Below, piece after piece: positions 43,345 to 53,306 of a DNA stretch of 64,000 nucleotides; the stretch's first letter is position 1; each line of letters begins with the position of its first letter. Position numbers and translations under genes: made by a program. Under the pieces are notes generated by a model. That model saw only the letters and a list, made by a program, of their open reading frames with translations, was not told the origin of the DNA and did not search any database. The DNA is from Actinobacteria bacterium IMCC26103 (lineage in GTDB: Bacteria; Actinomycetota; Actinomycetes; Nanopelagicales; Nanopelagicaceae), in assembly GCA_002284875.1 (NCBI GenBank), contig CP015604.1, forward strand, positions 1,116,001 to 1,180,000, read 5' to 3'.

Positions 43345-44145
43345 ATGAACATTACGTTAACCCTGCATCCTTCGAATATAGAAGGTGCACCTCATATCCT
43401 GCTGATCCATGGCATGGGTTCGGCTGCGACGGCATGGAAGCCTTTAACGCCTCATCTCTTAGATCGCTTCAATGTAATTACAGTGGATCTACCTGGACAT
43501 GGCGAATCTCCGTACACAAAGGGCCAACCCATGGATCCGAATACTTTGGCGCATCTGGTTACAATCGAAGTTGAAAAACATTTTGGTATCACTGAATTTG
43601 ATGTGGTTGGAAATTCATGGGGCGGTTGGATAGCGCTGGAAATGGCTGCACATGCACCAAGTAAAATTAAGAGCGTTACCGCCCTCGCCCCGGCAGGATT
43701 TTGGTTGGCTTCCTATATCCAGCGTGCACCCGGTACGGCGAGTATCCGCGCGCTAGCCAAGAGCTCGTACGCACTTTCTACTACATTTTTAAAGTACGAA
43801 TGGGCGCGCAAAATTGGATTTGCCGATGTTAGTCCCCAATGGCGAAAATTTTCTTATCAACTCTGTCTTGATGCAACCTTAGCCATGGCTAAATCTGCTG
43901 GGTACTTTCCGGCATGGGATGGCATGTTAGGCAAACGCTTTGACTCAAAGATCGACTCGAGCATTCCTGTGAAAATAATCTTTGGCGATTCCGATCGCAC
44001 GCTACCTGCAACTACCTGCCAAGAAACGGAAATGGCACCAAAACATTCAGAATGGATCACCATCGCCAACTGCGGCCATGCGCCAATGTGGGATAACGTC
44101 GAGACTGTGAAAGAACATATCTTCGAGATCGCCGGCCAAAGATAA
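43345..44145 (+). CDS. Alpha/beta hydrolase at the head of the carotenoid block
   Basis: The 266 residues form an alpha/beta hydrolase. HILLIHGMGSAATAWKPL supplies the oxyanion loop, and VVGNSWGGWIALEM the nucleophile Ser. The acid is probably in FGDSDRTLP, and the catalytic His in IANCGHAPMW. Its stop overlaps the start of the CrtA-like gene by one base (TAATG), so it is translated with the carotenoid genes. An esterase or lipase acting on a carotenoid derivative is possible, but the substrate is unknown. Confidence 0.85.
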   Translation: MNITLTLHPSNIEGAPHILLIHGMGSAATAWKPLTPHLLDRFNVITVDLPGHGESPYTKGQPMDPNTLAHLVTIEVEKHFGITEFDVVGNSWGGWIALEMAAHAPSKIKSVTALAPAGFWLASYIQRAPGTASIRALAKSSYALSTTFLKYEWARKIGFADVSPQWRKFSYQLCLDATLAMAKSAGYFPAWDGMLGKRFDSKIDSSIPVKIIFGDSDRTLPATTCQETEMAPKHSEWITIANCGHAPMWDNVETVKEHIFEIAGQR

Positions 44146-44810
44146 TGACAAGCTCAGAAGTAACCGTCATCTATTTTTGGAAGATCAAGCCCCGCAAAGT
44201 TGGCGTTGCACTTATTGGTATGGCGCTAGATCGCCGGTCGCTACGCAGAATTAACGGTGTGCACTTTGCCAAGATGCTTGGCACTGGAAAAGGCGAGACT
44301 TTCACACCTCGAGATGCCGATGCCAGACGTTGGGGTGCATTGGTAGTTATAGACCAAGCTAATTTGGAGCAACTAGATAATTCAAAGCTAGTAAATAGAT
44401 GGCGCGCTAATTCACTCGCTGAAGTCAGATATTTACTAGATCCAATTTCTTCCCATGGACTTTGGGCGAAGGTAAATCCCTTTGCTTACGCCACAACGCA
44501 AACTGATGGCGAAGTTATCGCCATTACTCGCGCCCGAATAAAGTGGTTTCAAAATTTCCGCTTTTGGCGCGCAGTCCCTCCCGTAACGCAGAGCCTTCAC
44601 TCATCACCAGGGCTGCTTAACACCATCGGAATCGGTGAAGCGCCGATTGGATTACAGGGAACTTTCTCACATTGGCGAACTGGCGCAGATCTCCGAAACT
44701 TTGCGTACAAGGGCGCCGCCCATCAAGTAGCGATCGCCGCAACAGAGCGCCACCAGTGGTATGCCGAAGAACTCTTTGCTCGCTTTGCAGTGCGCGAGAT
44801 TCGCGGCTGA
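44145..44810 (+). CDS. crtA: CrtA-like carotenoid monooxygenase (spheroidene monooxygenase family)
   Basis: The 221 residues match the CrtA family: FAKMLGTGKGETFTPRDAD near residue 40, RRWGALVVID, then GLLNTIGIGEAPIGLQGTFS and HWRTGADLRNFAYKGAAHQ, and WYAEELFARFAVRE at the end. In purple bacteria CrtA puts a keto group at C-2 of acyclic carotenoids; related enzymes oxidise other positions. It starts the block of tailoring genes for acyclic carotenoids, which suits its substrate class. The actual product is not known. Confidence 0.82.
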   Translation: MTSSEVTVIYFWKIKPRKVGVALIGMALDRRSLRRINGVHFAKMLGTGKGETFTPRDADARRWGALVVIDQANLEQLDNSKLVNRWRANSLAEVRYLLDPISSHGLWAKVNPFAYATTQTDGEVIAITRARIKWFQNFRFWRAVPPVTQSLHSSPGLLNTIGIGEAPIGLQGTFSHWRTGADLRNFAYKGAAHQVAIAATERHQWYAEELFARFAVREIRG

Positions 44811-44858
44811 TCTCAACTTAAATTACGCAGTAACCAGCAAGTAGGGCAGACTTAGCCC

Positions 44859-45662
44859 ATGTCGATACGCCATTACTCACCACGTCGTAATCGCCGTCGC
44901 GGAATTTCATCTCGTGCTCAGTTCTTACTAAATCTAACTTTGGGTATCGCCATCTTGCTGCAGGTTAGTTACCCACTGTTAAGCGGTGAATCTCTGCGTG
45001 TTGTCACAATTGCTACCGTTTATTGGGGCGCAGGTGCCATGGCACTGCATGCCCTCCTGGCCTTCGGTGCCCGCTATGCCTTTACCTATCTTGGAATAAC
45101 TCTGGCCTTTGGATATTCCATTGAGCTAATTGGCGTCAAATCTGGTTGGCCTTTTGGAATTTACTTATATGATCCTTCGCTTGGTCCGCAAATTTTTGAT
45201 GTTCCGTTTGTTGTTCCATTTGCGTGGGCGATGATCGCTCACCCAATCCTGTGCGCAGCACGTCGCGTTGCAGGTAATTGGGTCTTTCTCTATGGTGGAT
45301 TTGGCCTGATGGCTTATGACTTATTCCTAGATCCCCAAATGGTTTCAGCAGGTCGCTGGAAATGGGAAGTTACTGGTTCACATGTTCCATTCACCCCGGA
45401 AGTTCCTTTATCAAATGCCGTTGGTTGGTTGTTATCAGGAATGGCGCTGATTGCGTTATTACATCTATCTCTCCCACGTGAGCGACGTAAAGTCAGTGCG
45501 GGTTTTGCGGCAATTGATATCTTCTTAATTTGGACCTGGTTTGCGGGTGTTATCTCAAATCTCTTCTTCTTTGATCGCCCCGGAATCGCTTTTCTCTTCG
45601 GTCTAACTTTTGGCGCAGTACTAGCCCCATTTATATTTTCGCGTTGGCTCGGCCGCCCTTAA
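44859..45662 (+). CDS. cruF: CruF-like carotenoid 1',2'-hydratase (DUF422 membrane protein)
   Basis: A 267-residue membrane protein with about seven hydrophobic segments. The family core is FGYSIELIGVKSGWPFGIYL, then YDPSLGPQIFDVPFVVPFAW and YGGFGLMAYDLFLDPQMV. CruF and its archaeal and actinobacterial relatives add water to the psi end of lycopene- or gamma-carotene-type molecules, giving a tertiary hydroxyl. It is followed 7 bp later by a CruG-like glycosyltransferase, the same pairing as in myxol glycoside synthesis. The presence of conserved acidic residues supports activity. Confidence 0.85.
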   Translation: MSIRHYSPRRNRRRGISSRAQFLLNLTLGIAILLQVSYPLLSGESLRVVTIATVYWGAGAMALHALLAFGARYAFTYLGITLAFGYSIELIGVKSGWPFGIYLYDPSLGPQIFDVPFVVPFAWAMIAHPILCAARRVAGNWVFLYGGFGLMAYDLFLDPQMVSAGRWKWEVTGSHVPFTPEVPLSNAVGWLLSGMALIALLHLSLPRERRKVSAGFAAIDIFLIWTWFAGVISNLFFFDRPGIAFLFGLTFGAVLAPFIFSRWLGRP

Positions 45663-45669
45663 TATTTAG

Positions 45670-46737
45670 ATGTACACAACGCCCTTTCTCTTCTCGGTCC
45701 TCTTGCTTTGGATTACGGCTGCCAACTTTTTCACCATTCGACGCCCATCTGCTGTAACTGAGATTCCGACATCGGTCTCAGTATTAATCCCCGTCCGAAA
45801 TGAAGCAGAAAATATTGCTGAATTAATTGATTGCCTTACCAAACAGACCCATCTGGTTTCTTTGGAGATCATCTTTATCGATGATTCATCTGAAGATGGC
45901 ACTGGCAAGGCTTTACGTGAAGCAAAAGCCGATGGCGCTGCAATAAAAATTATCAACGCACCTGTTCTGCCAAGTAATTGGCTCGGTAAACCTTGGGCGC
46001 TGCAGCAGGGCTATTTGGCTGCACAGGGGGAAATAATCGTCACTCTAGATGCTGATGTCAGATTGGCTCCATCTGCAATCGCCCAAACTGTTGCCATGTT
46101 AGGCAGCCGAGAATTTATCTCTGCCTACCCAAGACAGGTTGCACTTTCATTTTCGGAAAGGTTAGTGCAACCGCTGCTGCAATGGTCTTGGATGACAACT
46201 GTTCCGCTGCGCGTTGCTGAAAGCTCCAGCCGATCGTCCCTTGCCGTTGCCAACGGCCAATTCTTTATGGTCAAGAAAGATGCGCTAGACCAAATCGGCG
46301 GATTTCAAAAGATTGCACTAGAAGTTTTAGATGATATGAAGCTAGCGCGCACCTTAATTACATTTGGCGCGCATGGTGGCGTAGCTGATGGTTCAAAGCT
46401 TGCCCATACTCGTATGTATAAAAACTTTAAAGAGATCAAGGCCGGTTACGGAAAATCTCTCTGGAGTGCATTCTCAACTCCGCTCGGTGCAGGACTTGCA
46501 ATTGCATTTATCTTCATAACTGGAATTGCACCAATTATTTTGTGGTTTAGCGGAAATCCCATCGGACTCTTTACTTATGAAATCATTGTTATTACTCGGA
46601 TTCTTAGCGCTAAGCGCTCGGGCGGTCGCACGCTTGATTCACTATTGCATCCCATTTCATCAGCAGTCTTGATCTATTTAATTATTTATAGCTGGCGCAT
46701 GCGCGGCAAAGTACAGTGGAAGGGTCGCACGCTGTGA
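45670..46737 (+). CDS. cruG: CruG-like family 2 glycosyltransferase
   Basis: The 355 residues start with one membrane segment (about 3-20). A GT2 domain follows: SVSVLIPVRNEAENIAELID, EIIFIDDSSEDGTGKALREA, VLPSNWLGKPWALQQGY, IIVTLDADVRLAPSAI (DxD) and FQKIALEVLDDMKLARTLI. Further membrane segments lie near the C-terminus (about 275-300, 330-347). CruG enzymes glycosylate hydroxyl groups of acyclic or monocyclic carotenoids. Adjacency to the CruF-like gene supports this. A 4-bp GTGA overlap couples it to the next gene. Confidence 0.82.
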   Translation: MYTTPFLFSVLLLWITAANFFTIRRPSAVTEIPTSVSVLIPVRNEAENIAELIDCLTKQTHLVSLEIIFIDDSSEDGTGKALREAKADGAAIKIINAPVLPSNWLGKPWALQQGYLAAQGEIIVTLDADVRLAPSAIAQTVAMLGSREFISAYPRQVALSFSERLVQPLLQWSWMTTVPLRVAESSSRSSLAVANGQFFMVKKDALDQIGGFQKIALEVLDDMKLARTLITFGAHGGVADGSKLAHTRMYKNFKEIKAGYGKSLWSAFSTPLGAGLAIAFIFITGIAPIILWFSGNPIGLFTYEIIVITRILSAKRSGGRTLDSLLHPISSAVLIYLIIYSWRMRGKVQWKGRTL

Positions 46738-48248
46738 GCGCTACTAAAGAACGCGTTGCGGTAATTGGTGCTGGTATGGGCGGAATGTGCACAGCAGCGC
46801 GCTTAGCGAAGGCCGGATATGAAGTAACGGTTTTTGAATCATCTGATCGCCACGGTGGAAAATGTCGCACCGAATGGATCGGTAATTACGCTTTCGACAC
46901 TGGTCCATCACTTCTAACGCTGCCAGCCGTTTATCGCGATTTCTTCCAGCGCACCGGTGATGTGATGGGGCGGGTAGTTGAACTTGCGCCAGTTAGCCCA
47001 TCATTTGATTACCGCTTCGCCGATGGCAGCGCAGTTCGCTTTGCCAACTTATCTCGCAAAGCGACGCTCTCGGAAATAGAGAAATCATTCGGAACCGAGC
47101 CAGCCCAAGAATGGGATCAAATAATGCGCCAGGCAGAGGCGATGTGGGATGTCTCGCGCGAGCCATTTATTGAATCAGAGTTGAGATCTGTTCGCTCACT
47201 TCTAAAACGCCCGACCTTGTTACGTGATCTTAAGATAATCTCGCCATGGAAAACGTTGCGCGATCTAAAGTTAAAAGATGCACATCTGCGCAATATTCTC
47301 GATCGTTATGCAACTTACAGCGGTTCAGACCCAAGAGTTGCACCTGCGGTATTGGCCTCGATTGCCTTCGTTGAAGAAGCATTCGGTGCTTGGCATATCA
47401 AAGGTGGCATCGGAAAATTAGCAGATGCCGTCTATCAACGCTGTCTCGATCGTGGCGTGAAATTCGAATTTCAGGCCCAAGTCACGCAGATCAACCATGA
47501 CGGTAAATCTACAACTGGAATTACTTTGGCCGATGGTCGCAAATTAGATTATGCAATCGTTGTTGCCAATGCCGATGCCTCTATGGTTTATAACAAGTTA
47601 ATTACCGGCAAAGTTAAGAAGTTACGTAAAGAGCGTGCTAATTTAGCTAAAGCTGATCCATCTCTTGCTGGCTTCTCGCTACTTCTTGGCCTGCGGCCCA
47701 CCGAAACTCCAACAGGGCTTTCTCATCACAACATCTTCTTTCCCGAAAATTATGACGACGAATTTGTAGATATCTTTGATCGAAAGCAACCGGTGCAGGA
47801 TCCAACTATTTACTTATGTGCACCGCAAGATGAATCTATGGTGCGCCATCCCGGGCACGAAGCCTGGTTTGTATTGGTAAATGCGCCACGCCACGATGAA
47901 AGCGGTAACGAAGGCTTTAACTGGAACGATGCTGACTTTAACCATCACTATGCGATGCAGATAATTAGCTCGTTAGAAGCGCGCGGTATTTCAATTCGCG
48001 ATCGCTTGGAAGTAATGGAGTTTCGCACGCCTGCAGATTTAGAACGCAGTGTGGCCGCACCTGGTGGCGCAATCTATGGAACTTCTAGCAATGGAGCGCG
48101 ATCGGCATTTATGCGCGCCAAGAATCGTTCCCCGCTTAAAGGTCTTTACTGTGTTGGAGGTTCAGCACATCCTGGTGGCGGACTGCCATTAGTTGGGCTA
48201 AGTGCTGAGATTGTCACGCAAGCTATTGTGGGCAAAACGAACCACTAA
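46734..48248 (+). CDS. crtD: CrtI/CrtD-family carotenoid desaturase (second copy)
   Basis: FAD-dependent desaturase of 504 residues. I start it at GTG 46734, which overlaps the preceding TGA, so it begins MSATKERVAVIGAG. The dinucleotide motif is VAVIGAGMGGMCTAARLAK, followed by HGGKCRTEWIG and FDTGPSLLTLP. The C-terminal motif is LYCVGGSAHPGGGLPLVGLS, nearer to hydroxyneurosporene dehydrogenases (CrtD) than to the CrtI in this window. With CruF present, a 3,4-desaturation next to the new hydroxyl is the likely reaction. Its last 51 bp overlap the CDP-alcohol phosphatidyltransferase gene on the other strand. Confidence 0.82.
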   Translation: MSATKERVAVIGAGMGGMCTAARLAKAGYEVTVFESSDRHGGKCRTEWIGNYAFDTGPSLLTLPAVYRDFFQRTGDVMGRVVELAPVSPSFDYRFADGSAVRFANLSRKATLSEIEKSFGTEPAQEWDQIMRQAEAMWDVSREPFIESELRSVRSLLKRPTLLRDLKIISPWKTLRDLKLKDAHLRNILDRYATYSGSDPRVAPAVLASIAFVEEAFGAWHIKGGIGKLADAVYQRCLDRGVKFEFQAQVTQINHDGKSTTGITLADGRKLDYAIVVANADASMVYNKLITGKVKKLRKERANLAKADPSLAGFSLLLGLRPTETPTGLSHHNIFFPENYDDEFVDIFDRKQPVQDPTIYLCAPQDESMVRHPGHEAWFVLVNAPRHDESGNEGFNWNDADFNHHYAMQIISSLEARGISIRDRLEVMEFRTPADLERSVAAPGGAIYGTSSNGARSAFMRAKNRSPLKGLYCVGGSAHPGGGLPLVGLSAEIVTQAIVGKTNH

Positions 48249-48830
48249 GTAGAAACTCAAAATCTGCAGAACGAAGAGCGCCAGCAGCGCTATAAAAACT
48301 AAATCTAAACCAAGTGCATAAGAAACAAGTGCGACAAATATAAAACTGGCACGTACTGGTCGCTCTGCCGGGGTAACTACACCTAAATCGGAAACCCCTA
48401 ACCCACCTAACTTAGCGCGGGCATATTCCTGGGTTGAGGCGATTACATAAGTTGCCAGCACTAACCAAGCTGGTGCCCCGATTTTATATGCGACATAGAA
48501 CCAGAGCGCCTCACTGATGCGATCTGCGCTGGCATCTAATACCGCACCAAAGGATGAGGTGCGTCCTTGAAATATCGCAACGCTGCCATCTATTCCATCG
48601 GCATATAGCGAAAGAACTAACAAGGGAATAACCCAGAGCGAGAGCGGATTTAACGCCATAGCAATCGCAAAGAGCACGCCGAGTGAGGTCAAAATATTTG
48701 GGGTTACATGGATCTTTGAAAGAAATTTTGCAGATCCAAATGAGATCGCCAGCCAAGCTTTAACAATTCCCTTAATCTCCGCTCCCCCGTGCAGCGAACT
48801 CCAGGTGGAGTTAAATTCTGACTTGTTCAT
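48198..48830 (-). CDS. CDP-alcohol phosphatidyltransferase family protein
   Basis: A 210-residue membrane protein. The family motif DG-x2-AR-x8-G-x3-D-x3-D is seen as DGSVAI from residue 81, FGAVLD to residue 99 and ASAD to 103, but the Arg is replaced by Ile. The family makes phosphatidylglycerol phosphate, phosphatidylinositol phosphate and related lipids. The alcohol substrate is unknown, and the missing Arg makes the exact assignment uncertain. It overlaps metF by 4 bp and the desaturase gene by 51 bp. Confidence 0.8.
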   Translation of the reverse strand: MNKSEFNSTWSSLHGGAEIKGIVKAWLAISFGSAKFLSKIHVTPNILTSLGVLFAIAMALNPLSLWVIPLLVLSLYADGIDGSVAIFQGRTSSFGAVLDASADRISEALWFYVAYKIGAPAWLVLATYVIASTQEYARAKLGGLGVSDLGVVTPAERPVRASFIFVALVSYALGLDLVFIALLALFVLQILSFYLVVRFAHNSLRDNLST

Positions 48831-49708
48831 TCCCGCCTCTTATCTTTGATCTGGGCAAAGATCTCACGTGTGGCAGTCGAGGTATTCATTGTGTAGAAGT
48901 GCAAACCTGGAACACCTGCTACAAGTAGATCTTCGCAAAGCTGGGTGGCTAACTCAACTCCTAATTTGCGAACATCTTCGGGGTTGTCTCTTACCTTTTC
49001 AAATGCGTTTGAAATCGCAGCCGGAATCGGAGTACCGGTTAACTCGGCCATGCGATTGAATTGGTTGACATTGGTCACTGGCAAAATTCCGGCAATTATC
49101 GGCAACTGCGATCCACGCGCTGCTAATTTATCGACAAGTGATTTCCATTTATCAGCTTCAAAGAAAAATTGTGTAGTCGCAAAAGTTGCTCCGGCTGCCT
49201 CTTTACGAATCAGAGTTTCAATATCTGCAGCAAAATCGCCATTTGATGCCGGATGGCCATCTGGGAATGCGGCAACACCAATTGTGAAGCCACCAAAATC
49301 TGCAGCCAGTGAAACTAACTCCTCTGCATGATTTAAGCCGCCGGGAGTTTGCGTCCAAGGTGCGCGAGGTCCACCAGTTGGATCACCACGTAGGGCCAAT
49401 ATGTTATGAATACCAGCGCCTTTGTAGCGAGTTAAAATTTCTAAGAGTTCGTCACGGGTTGATCCAACGCAAGTTAGATGTGCAACAACTGGCAACTTGG
49501 TATGTGCGGTAATTTCCGAGGTAATTCGAATAGTGCGATCGCGCGTAGAACCGCCGGCTCCATAGGTAACTGAGATGAAATCGGGCTTTATAGGCTCAAG
49601 TGCTTCGATTGCGCTCCAGAGCCGGTCTTCGCCCTCTTGGTCCTTTGGTGGAAAGAATTCAAAGGAGTATGTGACCGCTTCTCCAACCCGGCTCATGCGC
49701 ATCTCCAT
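48827..49708 (-). CDS. metF: 5,10-methylenetetrahydrofolate reductase
   Basis: Reduces methylene-THF to methyl-THF for methionine synthesis. From ATG 49706-49708 it has 293 residues. It shows YSFEFFPPKDQEGEDRLW (Glu of the active site), DFISVTYGAGGSTRDRT, VVAHLTCVGSTRDELLEIL, ILALRGDPTGGPRAP, FTIGVAAFPDGHPAS, ATTQFFFEADKW and LPIIAGILPVTN. I prefer this ATG because a TACCCT hexamer lies six bases before it; ATGs two and four codons further on are possible. Confidence 0.95.
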   Translation of the reverse strand: MEMRMSRVGEAVTYSFEFFPPKDQEGEDRLWSAIEALEPIKPDFISVTYGAGGSTRDRTIRITSEITAHTKLPVVAHLTCVGSTRDELLEILTRYKGAGIHNILALRGDPTGGPRAPWTQTPGGLNHAEELVSLAADFGGFTIGVAAFPDGHPASNGDFAADIETLIRKEAAGATFATTQFFFEADKWKSLVDKLAARGSQLPIIAGILPVTNVNQFNRMAELTGTPIPAAISNAFEKVRDNPEDVRKLGVELATQLCEDLLVAGVPGLHFYTMNTSTATREIFAQIKDKRRE

Positions 49709-49714
49709 GCGGTC

Positions 49715-49724
49715 AGGGTACCGT
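49715..49724. promoter_or_regulatory. Bidirectional promoter core between metF and crtE
   Basis: The plus strand reads AGGGTACCGT. The reverse of AGGGTA (49715-49720) is TACCCT, six bases before the metF ATG. TACCGT (49719-49724) is six bases before the crtE GTG. As at 41717-41726, the two hexamers share the central TA, and the start codons are 22 bp apart. Confidence 0.6.
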
Positions 49725-49730
49725 TGCGCC

Positions 49731-50816
49731 GTGGTTAACGATGCGCGTGGCACGCTCCTTGAGATTCGCGAGCAGGTTCAGAGTGAACTCACCTCATATC
49801 TTGCGCTACAACGCGAATACCTCGCCACCATCGGTTCTGAATTAATCCCGGTTTGTGATGCCCTTGAATCATTTGTCCTAGATGGCGGCAAACGGTTGCG
49901 CCCGCTCTTTGCATATGCAGGTTTTAGCGCAACTGGTTTACATCCCACCGCGGCCGATATCCGCGCCTTTGCAAGTCTGGAATTACTGCAAGCATGCGCA
50001 TTGATTCATGATGATCTAATGGATCGCTCGGACACCCGTCGTGGCAAACCTGCTATTCATCGCCACTTTGAGAATTTGCATCAAGAGCAAGCGATGAGTG
50101 GGCTAGCCGATCAATTCGGTGAAGCTGCTGCTGTTCTGCTAGGCGATCTAGCTTTAGTTTGGTCAGATCATTTGCTTCATACTTCAGGAGTATCAGATTC
50201 CGCTCTTTTATCGGCACTCTCTGTCCACGATGAGATGCGCATAGAACTTATGGCAGGCCAATATTTGGATGTTCGTGAGGCTGGTGAGAAATCTCCGAGC
50301 GTTGATCGGTCCCTTCGTATCGCCCGCTACAAATCTGGAAAATACACAATTGAACGCCCCCTGCACTTGGGGGCATCACTTGCAATTACCGATAAAAAAG
50401 CAGGTCAACAATTGGTAAATGTCTTAAGCGCATATGGACTTCCATTGGGCGAAGCATTTCAATTGCGCGATGATTTGCTCGGCATCTTTGGTGATCCAGC
50501 TATTACTGGAAAACCGGCGGGCGATGATATCCGCGAAGGAAAGCGCACCGTGCTGATGGCGATGACTTTAGAGCGCGCTTCGACAAGTGCGGCCAAAGAG
50601 ATAACAGCTGCCCTGGGGCGCGATGATTTAACGGCCAGCGATATTGAAAACGTTCGCTCACTCATAACCGCAACTGGTGCGGTCAAAGATGTCGAAGATC
50701 TCATCGATGGGCTACTTTCCAACGCGCTAAGTGCGGCAAACTCTGCTGAAATTAACCCTTCAGCCCGTGAGTTACTAATTGAACTTGCGACAAGTGCAAC
50801 ACGTAGGAGCCATTAA
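49731..50816 (+). CDS. crtE: Geranylgeranyl diphosphate synthase
   Basis: Trans-prenyltransferase of about 361 residues from GTG 49731 (MVNDARGTLLEIREQVQSEL). The first Asp-rich motif is ALIHDDLMDRSDTRRGK and the second LRDDLLGIFGDPAI. GGKRLRPLFAYA and the substrate-binding QYLDVRE and YKSGKYTIERPLHLG segments are also present. It starts the crtE-I-B operon and supplies GGPP, probably also for other prenyl lipids. A start further upstream would cross the metF promoter. In mycobacteria the neighbour of metF at this locus is the related idsA2. Confidence 0.93.
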   Translation: MVNDARGTLLEIREQVQSELTSYLALQREYLATIGSELIPVCDALESFVLDGGKRLRPLFAYAGFSATGLHPTAADIRAFASLELLQACALIHDDLMDRSDTRRGKPAIHRHFENLHQEQAMSGLADQFGEAAAVLLGDLALVWSDHLLHTSGVSDSALLSALSVHDEMRIELMAGQYLDVREAGEKSPSVDRSLRIARYKSGKYTIERPLHLGASLAITDKKAGQQLVNVLSAYGLPLGEAFQLRDDLLGIFGDPAITGKPAGDDIREGKRTVLMAMTLERASTSAAKEITAALGRDDLTASDIENVRSLITATGAVKDVEDLIDGLLSNALSAANSAEINPSARELLIELATSATRRSH

Positions 50817-52301
50817 ATGTCAGCCCGAGTAAAAGGTCCCACCGATCATGTTGTCGTTGTCGGCGCAGGTTTAGCTGGGTTAAGCGCTGCACTTCGATTA
50901 GCAGGTGCCGGACGCAAGGTCACTGTTGTTGAACGCGAGAGCGTTCCTGGTGGCCGCAATGGACTATTAGAAAAAGATGGATATTCCTTTGATACTGGTC
51001 CTTCGGTATTAACTATGCCATCGCTGATTCAAGATGCCTTTAGTTGCGTCGGTGAAGATATGAAAGATTGGTTAGAGCTTTCACCGCTCAAACCCCTTTA
51101 CCGTGCTTTTTATCATGACGGATCTCAAATAGATGTCCATGCCAATACCGCAGAGATGGAAGAAGAAATCCGTCGTACGGTCAGCGCTGAAGAAGCTCTG
51201 GGTTATCGCAGATATGTGGAATTTGTAACTAAGCTGTATAAGTACGAGATGAACGATTTTATCGATCGCAATATTGATTCGCCATTTAATTTGCTTACCC
51301 CAAACTTGGCGCGCTTGATTGCACTGGGTGGTTTCAGAAAGCTCTCCCCCAAGGTAAACCAGTTCTTAAAAGATCCGCGCCTGCAAAAGGTGTACTCATT
51401 CCAGGCGATGTATGCCGGCGTAAGCCCGCAACAAGCGCTAGCTATTTATGCAGTTATTGCGTATATGGATTCGGTAAATGGCGTCTTCTTCCCTAAGGGT
51501 GGAATGCACGCCGTTCCCCGTGCGCTAGCCGCTGCTGCCGAAAAACATGGCGTCACCTTTAAATACAACACCACCGTAACTGGGTTAGATGTGGAAAATG
51601 GTCGTGCTAAAGCGGTTATTACAAATGCTGGTGAACGAATCGCTTGTGATGTTGTCGTTATGAACCCAGATCTGCCAGTTGTTTGGCGTGACTTACTTGG
51701 CAAGACTCCGCTTTCGGTAAAGCGTCTTAAATACTCGCCATCTTGTGCCACATTATTAGTGGGCTCATCCAAGAAATATGACCATGTAGCTCATCACAAT
51801 ATCCACTTCGGTAAATCTTGGGATGGTGTCTTTGACGAGCTAATCAAGAAGAGGCAGCTCATGTCTGATCCTTCTGTGCTGGTCACGATTCCTACCAAGG
51901 ATGATCCAGCGCTGGCACCTTCTGGAAAAGAGAGTTATTACATCCTCTACCCAACTCCAAACCTGGATGCAGATATTGATTGGAAGACCCAAGCCCGTCC
52001 CTATCGCGATCACATGATCAAGACTTTGGAAGATCGCGGTTACACCGGCTTTGGCGATTCGATTGAAACAGAAGTAATGACCACGCCACTTGATTGGCAA
52101 GAACGTGGGATGGAGCGCGGTGCGCCATTTGCAAGTGCGCATACCTTCTTCCAAACCGGCCCTTTCCGTCCGCGAAATATCGCCGCTGGCTTTGAGAATG
52201 TCGTCTTTGCTGGCTCTGGAACACAGCCAGGCGTTGGAGTACCAATGGTTTTAATTTCCGGAAGATTAGCTGCAGAACGAATCGTAGGTCCGGTTAAGTA
52301 A
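50817..52301 (+). CDS. crtI: Phytoene desaturase
   Basis: Takes phytoene to lycopene. The 494 residues open with VVVVGAGLAGLSAALRLAGA (FAD site), VPGGRNGLLEKDGYSFDTG and PSVLTMPSLI. KYEMNDFIDRNIDSPFNLL and PQQALAIYAVIAYMDSVNG lie in the middle, and VFAGSGTQPGVGVPMVLISG is near the end. It abuts crtE with no gap, and its TAA directly precedes the crtB GTG. Confidence 0.95.
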   Translation: MSARVKGPTDHVVVVGAGLAGLSAALRLAGAGRKVTVVERESVPGGRNGLLEKDGYSFDTGPSVLTMPSLIQDAFSCVGEDMKDWLELSPLKPLYRAFYHDGSQIDVHANTAEMEEEIRRTVSAEEALGYRRYVEFVTKLYKYEMNDFIDRNIDSPFNLLTPNLARLIALGGFRKLSPKVNQFLKDPRLQKVYSFQAMYAGVSPQQALAIYAVIAYMDSVNGVFFPKGGMHAVPRALAAAAEKHGVTFKYNTTVTGLDVENGRAKAVITNAGERIACDVVVMNPDLPVVWRDLLGKTPLSVKRLKYSPSCATLLVGSSKKYDHVAHHNIHFGKSWDGVFDELIKKRQLMSDPSVLVTIPTKDDPALAPSGKESYYILYPTPNLDADIDWKTQARPYRDHMIKTLEDRGYTGFGDSIETEVMTTPLDWQERGMERGAPFASAHTFFQTGPFRPRNIAAGFENVVFAGSGTQPGVGVPMVLISGRLAAERIVGPVK

Positions 52302-53207
52302 GTGAATGAATTAAACGCTGCCAAAATTTACGATCCGCAACTGCGCGCATCCTATGAAGAGTGCAAACGTTTAAATTCGCTACACGGTAAGACTTATTAC
52401 TTAGCAACGCTGCTACTGCCGGCTGCTAAACGCCCCTTTGTTCACGCTCTATATGGATTTGCTCGCTATGCCGACGAGATAGTCGATGACCTTGCTTCTA
52501 CCTTGACGCCTGCGCAAAAGGCAGAGTTCCTAAGGAAGTGGAGCTCTGATGTTCTTGCAGGTCTTAAATCTGGAACAACGAGCGATGCCGTTGGTAAGGC
52601 GCTAATTGATACGGTGCAACGCTTTGCGATCCCGCATCAACATTTTGTGGATTTCCTTCATTCTATGGAGATGGATTTAACGGTAACTCAGTACAAAACT
52701 TTTGAAGATCTATATGAATACGTGTACGGATCGGCTGCGGTAATTGGCTTGGAGATGGTGCCGATATTGGGCGGCGATACTGTTAATTCGCTGGAAGCGG
52801 CTAAAGATCTTGGGGTGGCATTTCAATTAGCTAACTTCATCCGCGATGTTGGCGAAGATTTAGATCGCGGCCGAATATATCTTCCGCTAGATGAATTAGC
52901 CGCACATGGTGTAACACCTGAGATGCTCTATGCGCGAAAACTCACGCCAGAGATTATTAGCGCGCTTAAATTTCAGATCGCACGGGTCAGACAATTACAA
53001 AAGGCGGCCGCACCCGGCATCGCGCTCTTAGATAAGACCAGTCGGCCATGTATTCGCGCCGCTAGCGAGCTTTACTGTGGAATCGTTGATGAAGTTGAAA
53101 ATATTGGCTATGACATCTTTAACAAACGAGCAAAAACTTCAACTACCCGCCGCGCACGAGTTGCCGCCCGCGCCTATATCGACGCAGTAATCGCTCGTAT
53201 CGGCTAA
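52302..53207 (+). CDS. crtB: Phytoene synthase
   Basis: Condenses two GGPP to phytoene. The 301 residues carry FARYADEIVDDLAST (first Asp-rich motif), DFLHSMEMDLTVTQYKTFED, YVYGSAAVIGLEMVPILGG and LANFIRDVGEDLDRGRIYLP (second motif). Translation begins at GTG 52302, next to the crtI stop. Its stop codon overlaps a -10-like TAAAGT that could drive the TPP riboswitch downstream. Confidence 0.95.
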   Translation: MNELNAAKIYDPQLRASYEECKRLNSLHGKTYYLATLLLPAAKRPFVHALYGFARYADEIVDDLASTLTPAQKAEFLRKWSSDVLAGLKSGTTSDAVGKALIDTVQRFAIPHQHFVDFLHSMEMDLTVTQYKTFEDLYEYVYGSAAVIGLEMVPILGGDTVNSLEAAKDLGVAFQLANFIRDVGEDLDRGRIYLPLDELAAHGVTPEMLYARKLTPEIISALKFQIARVRQLQKAAAPGIALLDKTSRPCIRAASELYCGIVDEVENIGYDIFNKRAKTSTTRRARVAARAYIDAVIARIG

Positions 53208-53216
53208 AGTATCAAT

Positions 53217-53299
53217 CGCGGGAGCCGCTAATACGGCTGAGAGGATCTGAGATTCAGATCGACCGCTTGACCCATCCGGTAATGCGGATGTGGAAAGGA
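53217..53299 (+). ncRNA. TPP riboswitch (THI element)
   Basis: The leader shows the conserved order GCGGGAGCC, CGGCTGAGAGGAT, an ATCTGAGATTCAGAT hairpin, GACCGCTTGACCCATCCGG, TAATGC, and GGATGTGGAAAGGA. CTGAGA and GGTAATGC are the thiamin-pyrophosphate core. AAGGA at its 3' end is also the ribosome-binding site of the next gene (ATG at 53307), so control is likely translational: ligand binding would hide the site. A TAAAGT hexamer at 53205-53210 may start the RNA right at the element. Confidence 0.92.
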
Positions 53300-53306
53300 T
53301 TTAATA

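Follow-up and report, generated by a model that had tools for sequence, protein, structure and literature searches.

The window, a stretch of 64,000 nucleotides corresponding to bases 1,116,001-1,180,000 (G000:C1) of the single-contig genome (1,456,516 bases) of Actinobacteria bacterium IMCC26103, contains a carotenoid gene cluster at positions 43345-53207. The source genome is that of a Candidatus Planktophila species, Planktophila presumably being a member of the acI lineage. On balance, the cluster was considered to make a monocyclic glycoside of the deoxymyxol type whose ring is unsubstituted, probably serving as a membrane photoprotectant with a possible antenna role in rhodopsin-bearing strains. 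The likely structure is a monocyclic 1'-hydroxy, 2'-hydroxy, 3',4'-didehydro carotenoid glycoside of the deoxymyxol or salinixanthin type. A single ring is likely because the two-gene lycopene cyclase crtYc/crtYd (crtYcd) co-occurs with the monooxygenase gene crtA across the family to which the organism belongs, and often sits within the cluster.

The genes that had been named in an earlier note on the window (hydrolase, CrtA, CruF, glycosyltransferase family 2 (GT2), CrtD and crtE-crtI-crtB) were all present as plus-strand open reading frames (ORFs). These are listed below with the neighbouring features.

43345..44145, plus strand: alpha/beta hydrolase (PF00561, 95.9 bits)
44145..44810, plus strand: CrtA-family monooxygenase (NF045923, 145.9 bits; predicted heme-type fold)
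44859..45662, plus strand: CruF-like carotenoid 1',2'-hydratase (PF04240)
45670..46737, plus strand: GT2 glycosyltransferase, CruG/HpnB-like, with a DAD motif (PF00535 above cut-off)
46716..48248, plus strand: CrtD-like 1-hydroxycarotenoid 3,4-desaturase of the CrtI superfamily (NF045637, TIGR02734)
48198..48830, minus strand: CDP-alcohol phosphatidyltransferase (PIP-synthase-like), a conserved neighbour outside the pathway
48827..49753, minus strand: methylenetetrahydrofolate reductase (MTHFR), a conserved neighbour outside the pathway
49575..50816, plus strand: crtE, geranylgeranyl diphosphate synthase (PF00348 above cut-off; ORF as listed)
50817..52301, plus strand: crtI, phytoene desaturase (TIGR02734, 520 bits, above cut-off)
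52302..53207, plus strand: crtB, phytoene synthase (PF00494 above cut-off)
53208..53306, no strand: junction between crtB and pnuC; in most relatives crtYd-crtYc occupies this site on the opposite strand, but not here

Judged by the profile matches, the family-level assignments for the genes of the locus are sure. CruF passed PF04240 with 106.9 bits (cut-off 25) and fell short of the equivalog TIGR03460 (100.1 bits, cut-off 154.7). The best glycosyltransferase model for the GT2 protein was CruG (NF045692), a 2'-O-glycosyltransferase by model name, at 148 bits with a cut-off of 600; HpnB followed at 122 bits (cut-off 379), neither being reached. CrtD scored 330 bits against NF045637, below the cut-off of 580, and exceeded that of the subfamily TIGR02734. 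CrtA had no Pfam match, and the only NCBIfam model matched was NF045923 (spheroidene monooxygenase; residues 21-220, E-value 1.2e-42), its 145.9 bits not reaching the curated cut-off of 300. At the level of homology, below the equivalog cut-offs, genes for a psi-end 1,2-hydratase, 3,4-desaturase and 2-hydroxylase are co-located in the locus. The crtB gene was the sole PF00494 match in the whole genome. The best profile match of the crtE ORF started only at residue 66, so the true start codon probably lies as many as about 65 codons inside the listed ORF.

From these assignments, we infer the following reactions and their order. Lycopene would be made by CrtE-CrtB-CrtI, and one of its ends would be cyclised by heterodimeric CrtYc/CrtYd, whose genes in this species lie about 150 kb from the cluster, next to the carotene dioxygenase gene blh. 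At the psi end, CruF would hydrate C1', CrtD would desaturate C3',4' and the putative heme monooxygenase CrtA would hydroxylate C2', before the GT2 enzyme adds a sugar to either the 1'- or the 2'-hydroxyl. In the membrane the finished carotenoid would act as the photoprotectant, and rhodopsin-bearing strains could also use it as the antenna of an actinorhodopsin. A closely similar route is described for Nonlabens spongiae, where CrtY, CruF and CrtD expressed in Escherichia coli gave 1'-hydroxytorulene and the further addition of CrtA-OH gave deoxymyxol (PMC11855829). The earlier note did not know CrtA with CruF and CruG from a described pathway; the pairing of CrtA with CruF is therefore already on record, and the CruG-like GT2 enzyme and the two-subunit cyclase are the points of difference. 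Of the route proposed in that note, the hydration, 3,4-desaturation, CrtA oxidation and glycosylation were retained by homology, while its acyclic nature was not supported as stated, in view of the cyclase genes in the genome and the family counts below.

Within the window no cyclase, ketolase or cleavage enzyme was found, as had been noted, since the only genome matches to TIGR03462 and PF15461 are at 1.32 Mb, outside it. The absence of a cyclase did not extend to the genome. The two genes crtYc and crtYd (TIGR03462 twice, above cut-off) were located at 1,320,565-1,321,157, and blh (PF15461 and TIGR03753 above cut-off) adjoins them on the opposite strand. One rhodopsin gene was present, at 1.436 Mb. 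The suggested genome search for a cyclase, blh and rhodopsin thus returned all three, and the supposed link to a rhodopsin-bearing organism was borne out. A cyclase elsewhere, combined with a cluster inactive on lycopene, had been put forward as evidence that would overturn the acyclic proposal; of this pair, the cyclase was found. Judged by homology, the genome encodes lycopene synthesis, a cyclase and a retinal route in addition to the tailoring cluster. Neither PF04116 nor PF00487 had a match in the genome at an E-value of 0.001. The ring-modifying hydroxylases and ketolases of these types belong to PF04116 in the case of CrtZ and to PF00487 in the case of CrtW and CrtR. As the CrtZ family had no match, the product would be of deoxymyxol type at most. 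In a relative, Planktophila lacus (G085), an extra crtYd-like copy was seen about 0.9 kb from crtYc-crtYd-blh, giving three TIGR03462 matches (L152, G085:C1:408000-424000).

To place the locus in its family, a set of 121 genomes was used, sampled at even spacing from a larger group; 77 of them, with a completeness of 90% or more and no more than 5% contamination, are termed good genomes here. Among the 121, crtA was present in 110, crtYcd in 114, cruF (PF04240) in 117, rhodopsin in 98 and blh in 48. In the good genomes crtA was found in 71, every one of which (71/71) also had crtYcd. The only crtA-positive genomes in the full set with no cyclase match were G002 and G116, which are 78 and 73% complete. 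Of the 71 good crtA-positive genomes, 39 lacked blh and 11 lacked both blh and rhodopsin. Retinal synthesis cannot explain the retention of the cyclase in the former, because blh is absent there; the xanthophyll is the obvious reason. As a separate observation, 28 of the 59 good rhodopsin-positive genomes had no blh match, and many opsins of the family must therefore either function without retinal or depend on an external supply of it.

Neighbourhoods were laid out for 109 of the 110 crtA-positive family genomes, G058 being left out. The common order of the first block was hydrolase, crtA, cruF, GT2 and crtD. In the second block, crtE, crtI and crtB were usually preceded by the CDP-alcohol phosphatidyltransferase and MTHFR genes on the opposite strand, and the 3' end of the cluster often consisted of crtYd-crtYc on the opposite strand followed by pnuC. 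Among the 109 loci, crtA adjoined cruF at 106, cruF adjoined GT2 at 103 and GT2 adjoined crtD at 99. Ten loci had a missing adjacency, and eight of these leave the fetched contig less than 2 kb from crtA; only G011 and G105 do not. As this gene order recurs across the family, the locus is more than a chance assembly.

The placement of the cyclase genes was judged at 74 of the 75 loci that include crtB, a few crtA-less loci among them. At 52 of these 74 readable loci crtYcd lay inside the cluster, after crtB. This was the case for 36 of 42 blh-negative genomes and 16 of 32 blh-positive genomes, and the six blh-negative loci without in-cluster crtYcd had it elsewhere in the same genomes. In the genus of the source organism, in-cluster crtYcd was absent at all ten blh-positive loci and present at three of the four blh-negative ones. 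In G103, a blh-negative member of the genus, crtYcd sits beside crtB on a separate contig. The window therefore comes from a species with the cyclase outside the cluster, and the earlier note therefore had none in view. The 71 of 71 co-occurrence and the 52 in-cluster placements, together with the genome's own crtYc/crtYd, speak against describing the pigment as acyclic.

A product that is nevertheless acyclic was regarded as rather unlikely. Here the distant CrtYcd would feed only blh and retinal synthesis, and tailoring of one or both lycopene ends would yield a mono- or bis-glycosylated acyclic xanthophyll. None of the ten own-genus blh-positive clusters has a local cyclase, which agrees with such a product, as do the hydroxy- and dihydroxylycopene described among the Nonlabens products; the samples include a CruF-only strain, and the pairing of products with strain is an inferred one (PMC11855829). 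This division of labour is countered by the cyclase in all 71 good crtA-positive genomes, including the 39 that lack blh, and by an own-genus species, G109, which has the cyclase and lacks blh. Several points nonetheless weigh against the monocyclic glycoside. In this species crtYcd lies beside blh and outside the cluster, and could be devoted to retinal, leaving the xanthophyll acyclic. In genomes lacking blh, beta-carotene as an end product could be an alternative reason for the cyclase. CrtYcd itself may act as either a mono- or a bicyclase. Among the models shown, no pathway gene reached an NCBIfam equivalog cut-off, and CrtA, CruF, CruG and CrtD are therefore family-level names here. Finally, the cyclase tree leaves the source of the own-genus blh-linked pair unsettled. 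A FastTree phylogeny of 82 concatenated crtYc/crtYd pairs nested this pair with cluster-linked pairs, and in the IQ-TREE phylogeny its partners were some of the blh-linked pairs from other genera (support 96/91, with long branches and the bootstrap unsettled). In approximately unbiased (AU) tests, a single blh-linked clade was rejected neither with the own-genus pair (p 0.405) nor without it (p 0.42). The idea that the cluster cyclase moved to blh in Planktophila, favoured by FastTree and opposed by IQ-TREE, was dropped with the AU tests undecided.

The position of the sugar also bears on the proposed glycoside. In two genomes (G003 and G094), which have no crtA match, cruF immediately follows the hydrolase gene, and GT2, crtD and crtE-crtI are kept; rhodopsin is absent. 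A third genome, G088, resembles them, including the lack of rhodopsin, but there the contig stops right ahead of cruF and the crtA loss may be an assembly gap. Since G003 and G094 keep the glycosyltransferase without crtA, this enzyme may not need the CrtA product, a further point against the proposed order, and the two genomes suggest that the 1'-hydroxyl by itself can be a sufficient acceptor, as it is in salinixanthin.

The CrtA-like protein was examined at the level of fold and conserved residues. The structure match called for in the earlier note was run on a predicted model with a mean predicted local distance difference test score of 87.3, and heme aldoxime dehydratases were the closest class (Z 14.6, 213 residues aligned, root-mean-square deviation 3.6), followed by the next class at Z 8.8. 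With Foldseek, ferredoxin-like monooxygenases ranked first and aldoxime dehydratases appeared from rank 11. A sequence search of the PDB with CrtA and with CruF gave no meaningful relative. The aldoxime dehydratase-like fold agrees with the 5-coordinated heme described for purple-bacterial CrtA, an enzyme that is reported to need oxygen and reduced ferredoxin (PMC10604819). All 35 aligned CrtA relatives matched NF045923. His193 was invariant in this alignment (A1, 35 family and phylum sequences) and also in the Roseobacter and Deinococcus relatives added to form a second alignment (A2), and for this reason it is a candidate heme ligand.

The CrtA of the window is most likely a carotenoid 2'-hydroxylase of the CrtA-OH type. 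Were it instead a 2'-ketolase as in purple bacteria, the product would carry a 2'-keto group with the sugar on the 1'-hydroxyl, a spheroidenone-like end. Such a function could be proposed from shared invariant columns: A1 has 24 invariant columns, and 20 of them were still invariant in A2, whose Roseobacter member is an annotated spheroidene monooxygenase (31.5% identical to the window CrtA), and a seven-row alignment including this protein had 33 invariant columns. These columns count against a hydroxylase, as does the best and only NCBIfam model being spheroidene monooxygenase; the retention of the glycosyltransferase without crtA in G003 and G094 is likewise compatible with a ketolase. Against this, the score reaches only about half the ketolase equivalog cut-off (145.9 of 300 bits), the Nonlabens CrtA, found with CruF and CrtD, is described as a hydroxylase (PMC11855829), and the ketolase CrtA is described as derived from the CrtA-OH hydroxylase (PMC10604819; PMC2889829). 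A 2'-ketolase was given a low probability.

The role of the carotenoid was approached through the distribution of rhodopsin. The 77 good genomes comprised 59 with both crtA and rhodopsin, 12 with crtA only, none with rhodopsin only and six with neither (Fisher p 8e-5, or 3e-4 without G088). In the full set, rhodopsin without crtA occurred in G004, G024 and G102, which are 85, 88 and 79% complete. By alignment to xanthorhodopsin 3ddl, the rhodopsin has retained the glycine opening the antenna pocket (G156 of xanthorhodopsin), and this residue was present in 13 of 13 rhodopsin rows, representing 12 distinct proteins. For the actinorhodopsin of a different actinobacterial lineage, the purified carotenoid is reported to interact with the protein and to make initial pumping faster (PMC8113403). 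All of this favours an antenna as the main role of the pathway, which was regarded as a tentative possibility. It is opposed by the 12 good genomes that keep crtA without rhodopsin, which also weigh against reading the proposed carotenoid as purely an antenna. The double-negatives are all in genus g4 and may represent one event, and the missing crtA of G088 may, as said, be a gap. For Kin4B8, moreover, a ring C3 hydroxyl is described as required (PMC12308411), and this genome has neither PF04116 nor PF00487. Photoprotection with an optional antenna function would fit best. The carotenoid mass reported for Aquiluna (PMC8113403) was dropped as evidence, crtEb being reported near the crt genes of that lineage (PMC12422013).

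The hydrolase has the features of an ordinary alpha/beta hydrolase, with both the nucleophile elbow G-N-S-W-G-G and a C-terminal GHAP motif. Its stop codon overlaps the crtA start in the sequence TAATG, which upholds the earlier tie between the two genes as far as it goes. The tie is loosened by the wider family: the hydrolase was found beside 89 of the 109 crtA loci and not detected at 20 (at G027, one of these, the contig ends), and genomes that lack crtA still carry it next to cruF. The suggestion that it adds or removes an acyl group found no support in the family matches or the locus counts and was abandoned.

Four relatives had no PF00494 match anywhere, namely G076, G112 and G118 of genus g4 and G014 of genus g15 (95, 92, 94 and 87% complete, respectively). 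They also had no crtYcd and no crtA, and GT2, crtD, crtI and crtB were absent at the locus. Uninterrupted hydrolase, cruF and crtE genes are kept at the old locus, the hydrolase-cruF pairs lying at L144:9378-11016, L147:9531-11204, L148:9660-11320 and L143:9649-11258. This raised a second role for CruF and the hydrolase outside carotenoid synthesis in the family, such as the hydration or other processing of another isoprenoid made from the product of CrtE, or of an imported carotenoid. The CruF proteins of G112 and G118 were 70.6% identical, with a non-synonymous distance (dN) of 0.22 and a synonymous distance that was not computable and was taken as saturation; among all four, most synonymous distances either exceeded 1.9 or could not be computed, again taken as saturation. 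Relative to CrtE, the dN ratio of this pair was 2.1 for CruF and 1.8 for the hydrolase, whereas the CruF ratio of G003-G094, a pair that has phytoene synthase, was 0.85. Because the CruF ratio is raised, decay under relaxed selection is favoured over a phytoene-free function, and the second role was considered very unlikely. A further genome without phytoene synthase, G004, keeps cruF with no hydrolase detected; at 85% completeness and 7% contamination it was not relied on.

Some further observations concern the surroundings of the locus. The PIP-synthase-like and MTHFR genes (48198-49753) separate the two carotenoid blocks in most loci of the family, for no evident reason. Twelve loci of relatives with inserts between crtI and crtB or between crtD and the PIP-synthase-like gene were inspected by eye for extra tailoring genes, and no carotenoid gene was recognised; the insert ORFs resemble purine permeases, phosphoribosyltransferases, deaminases, enolase-superfamily genes and regulators, among others. 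In a phylum sample of 396 genomes, 28 had a CrtA match at an E-value threshold of 0.001, with the source genome and a few weak matches counted in. Outside the family, cruF adjoins crtA at three loci (L216, L221 and L227) among 19 examined with flanks of at most 1.5 kb, and at L221 the consecutive order is crtE-crtA-cruF-GT2. Three loci from public records (L193, L194 and L201) are syntenic to Planktophila and 79-84% identical to it in CrtA; their record titles, Bifidobacterium breve and Streptomycetaceae, look misassigned.

In fresh water, the acI Actinobacteria rank among the most common bacteria. For every acI clade, Dwulit-Smith et al. (2018, Applied and Environmental Microbiology) reportedly described a secondary branch leading to a complex carotenoid, besides the retinal route. 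The locus of the window is probably this branch and, as such, known already. In the open-licence literature searched, no paper was found that defines the carotenoid of this second branch or ties a Planktophila carotenoid to cruF. What is added here is the case for a monocyclic product from co-occurrence and gene order, the link to the deoxymyxol route and the exceptions without phytoene synthase. In place of an unknown acyclic pigment, a concrete and testable structure is offered, the monocyclic deoxymyxol-type glycoside. CrtYcd would be the enzyme at which the two-ringed retinal precursor and the one-ringed xanthophyll compete, and the relatives lacking blh, rhodopsin, crtA or phytoene synthase serve as natural knock-outs.

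Three known systems invite comparison. The cyanobacterial pathway to myxol-2'-fucoside (myxoxanthophyll) shares the CruF hydratase and a CruG-type GT2 with the present locus; its cyclase differs from CrtYc/CrtYd, and its 2'-hydroxylase is not known to be a CrtA. Salinixanthin, the xanthorhodopsin antenna of Salinibacter and Rhodothermus, is likewise monocyclic, 1',2'-oxygenated, 3',4'-didehydro and glycosylated, but it is 4-keto and acylated, unlike the product proposed here. Its proposed route employs CrtO, CruC and CruD, and no CruF or CrtA homologue is reported from R. marinus (PMC5822342). The myxol pathway of Nonlabens spongiae and Flavobacterium P99-3 (CrtY, CruF, CrtD, CrtA-OH and CrtZ) has in common with the locus a lycopene cyclase and the tailoring of one psi end by CruF, CrtD and a CrtA-type enzyme (PMC11855829). 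In contrast to that pathway, the Planktophila system has a two-subunit CrtYc/CrtYd, no CrtZ family (PF04116) and, in addition, a CruG-like GT2 and a hydrolase.

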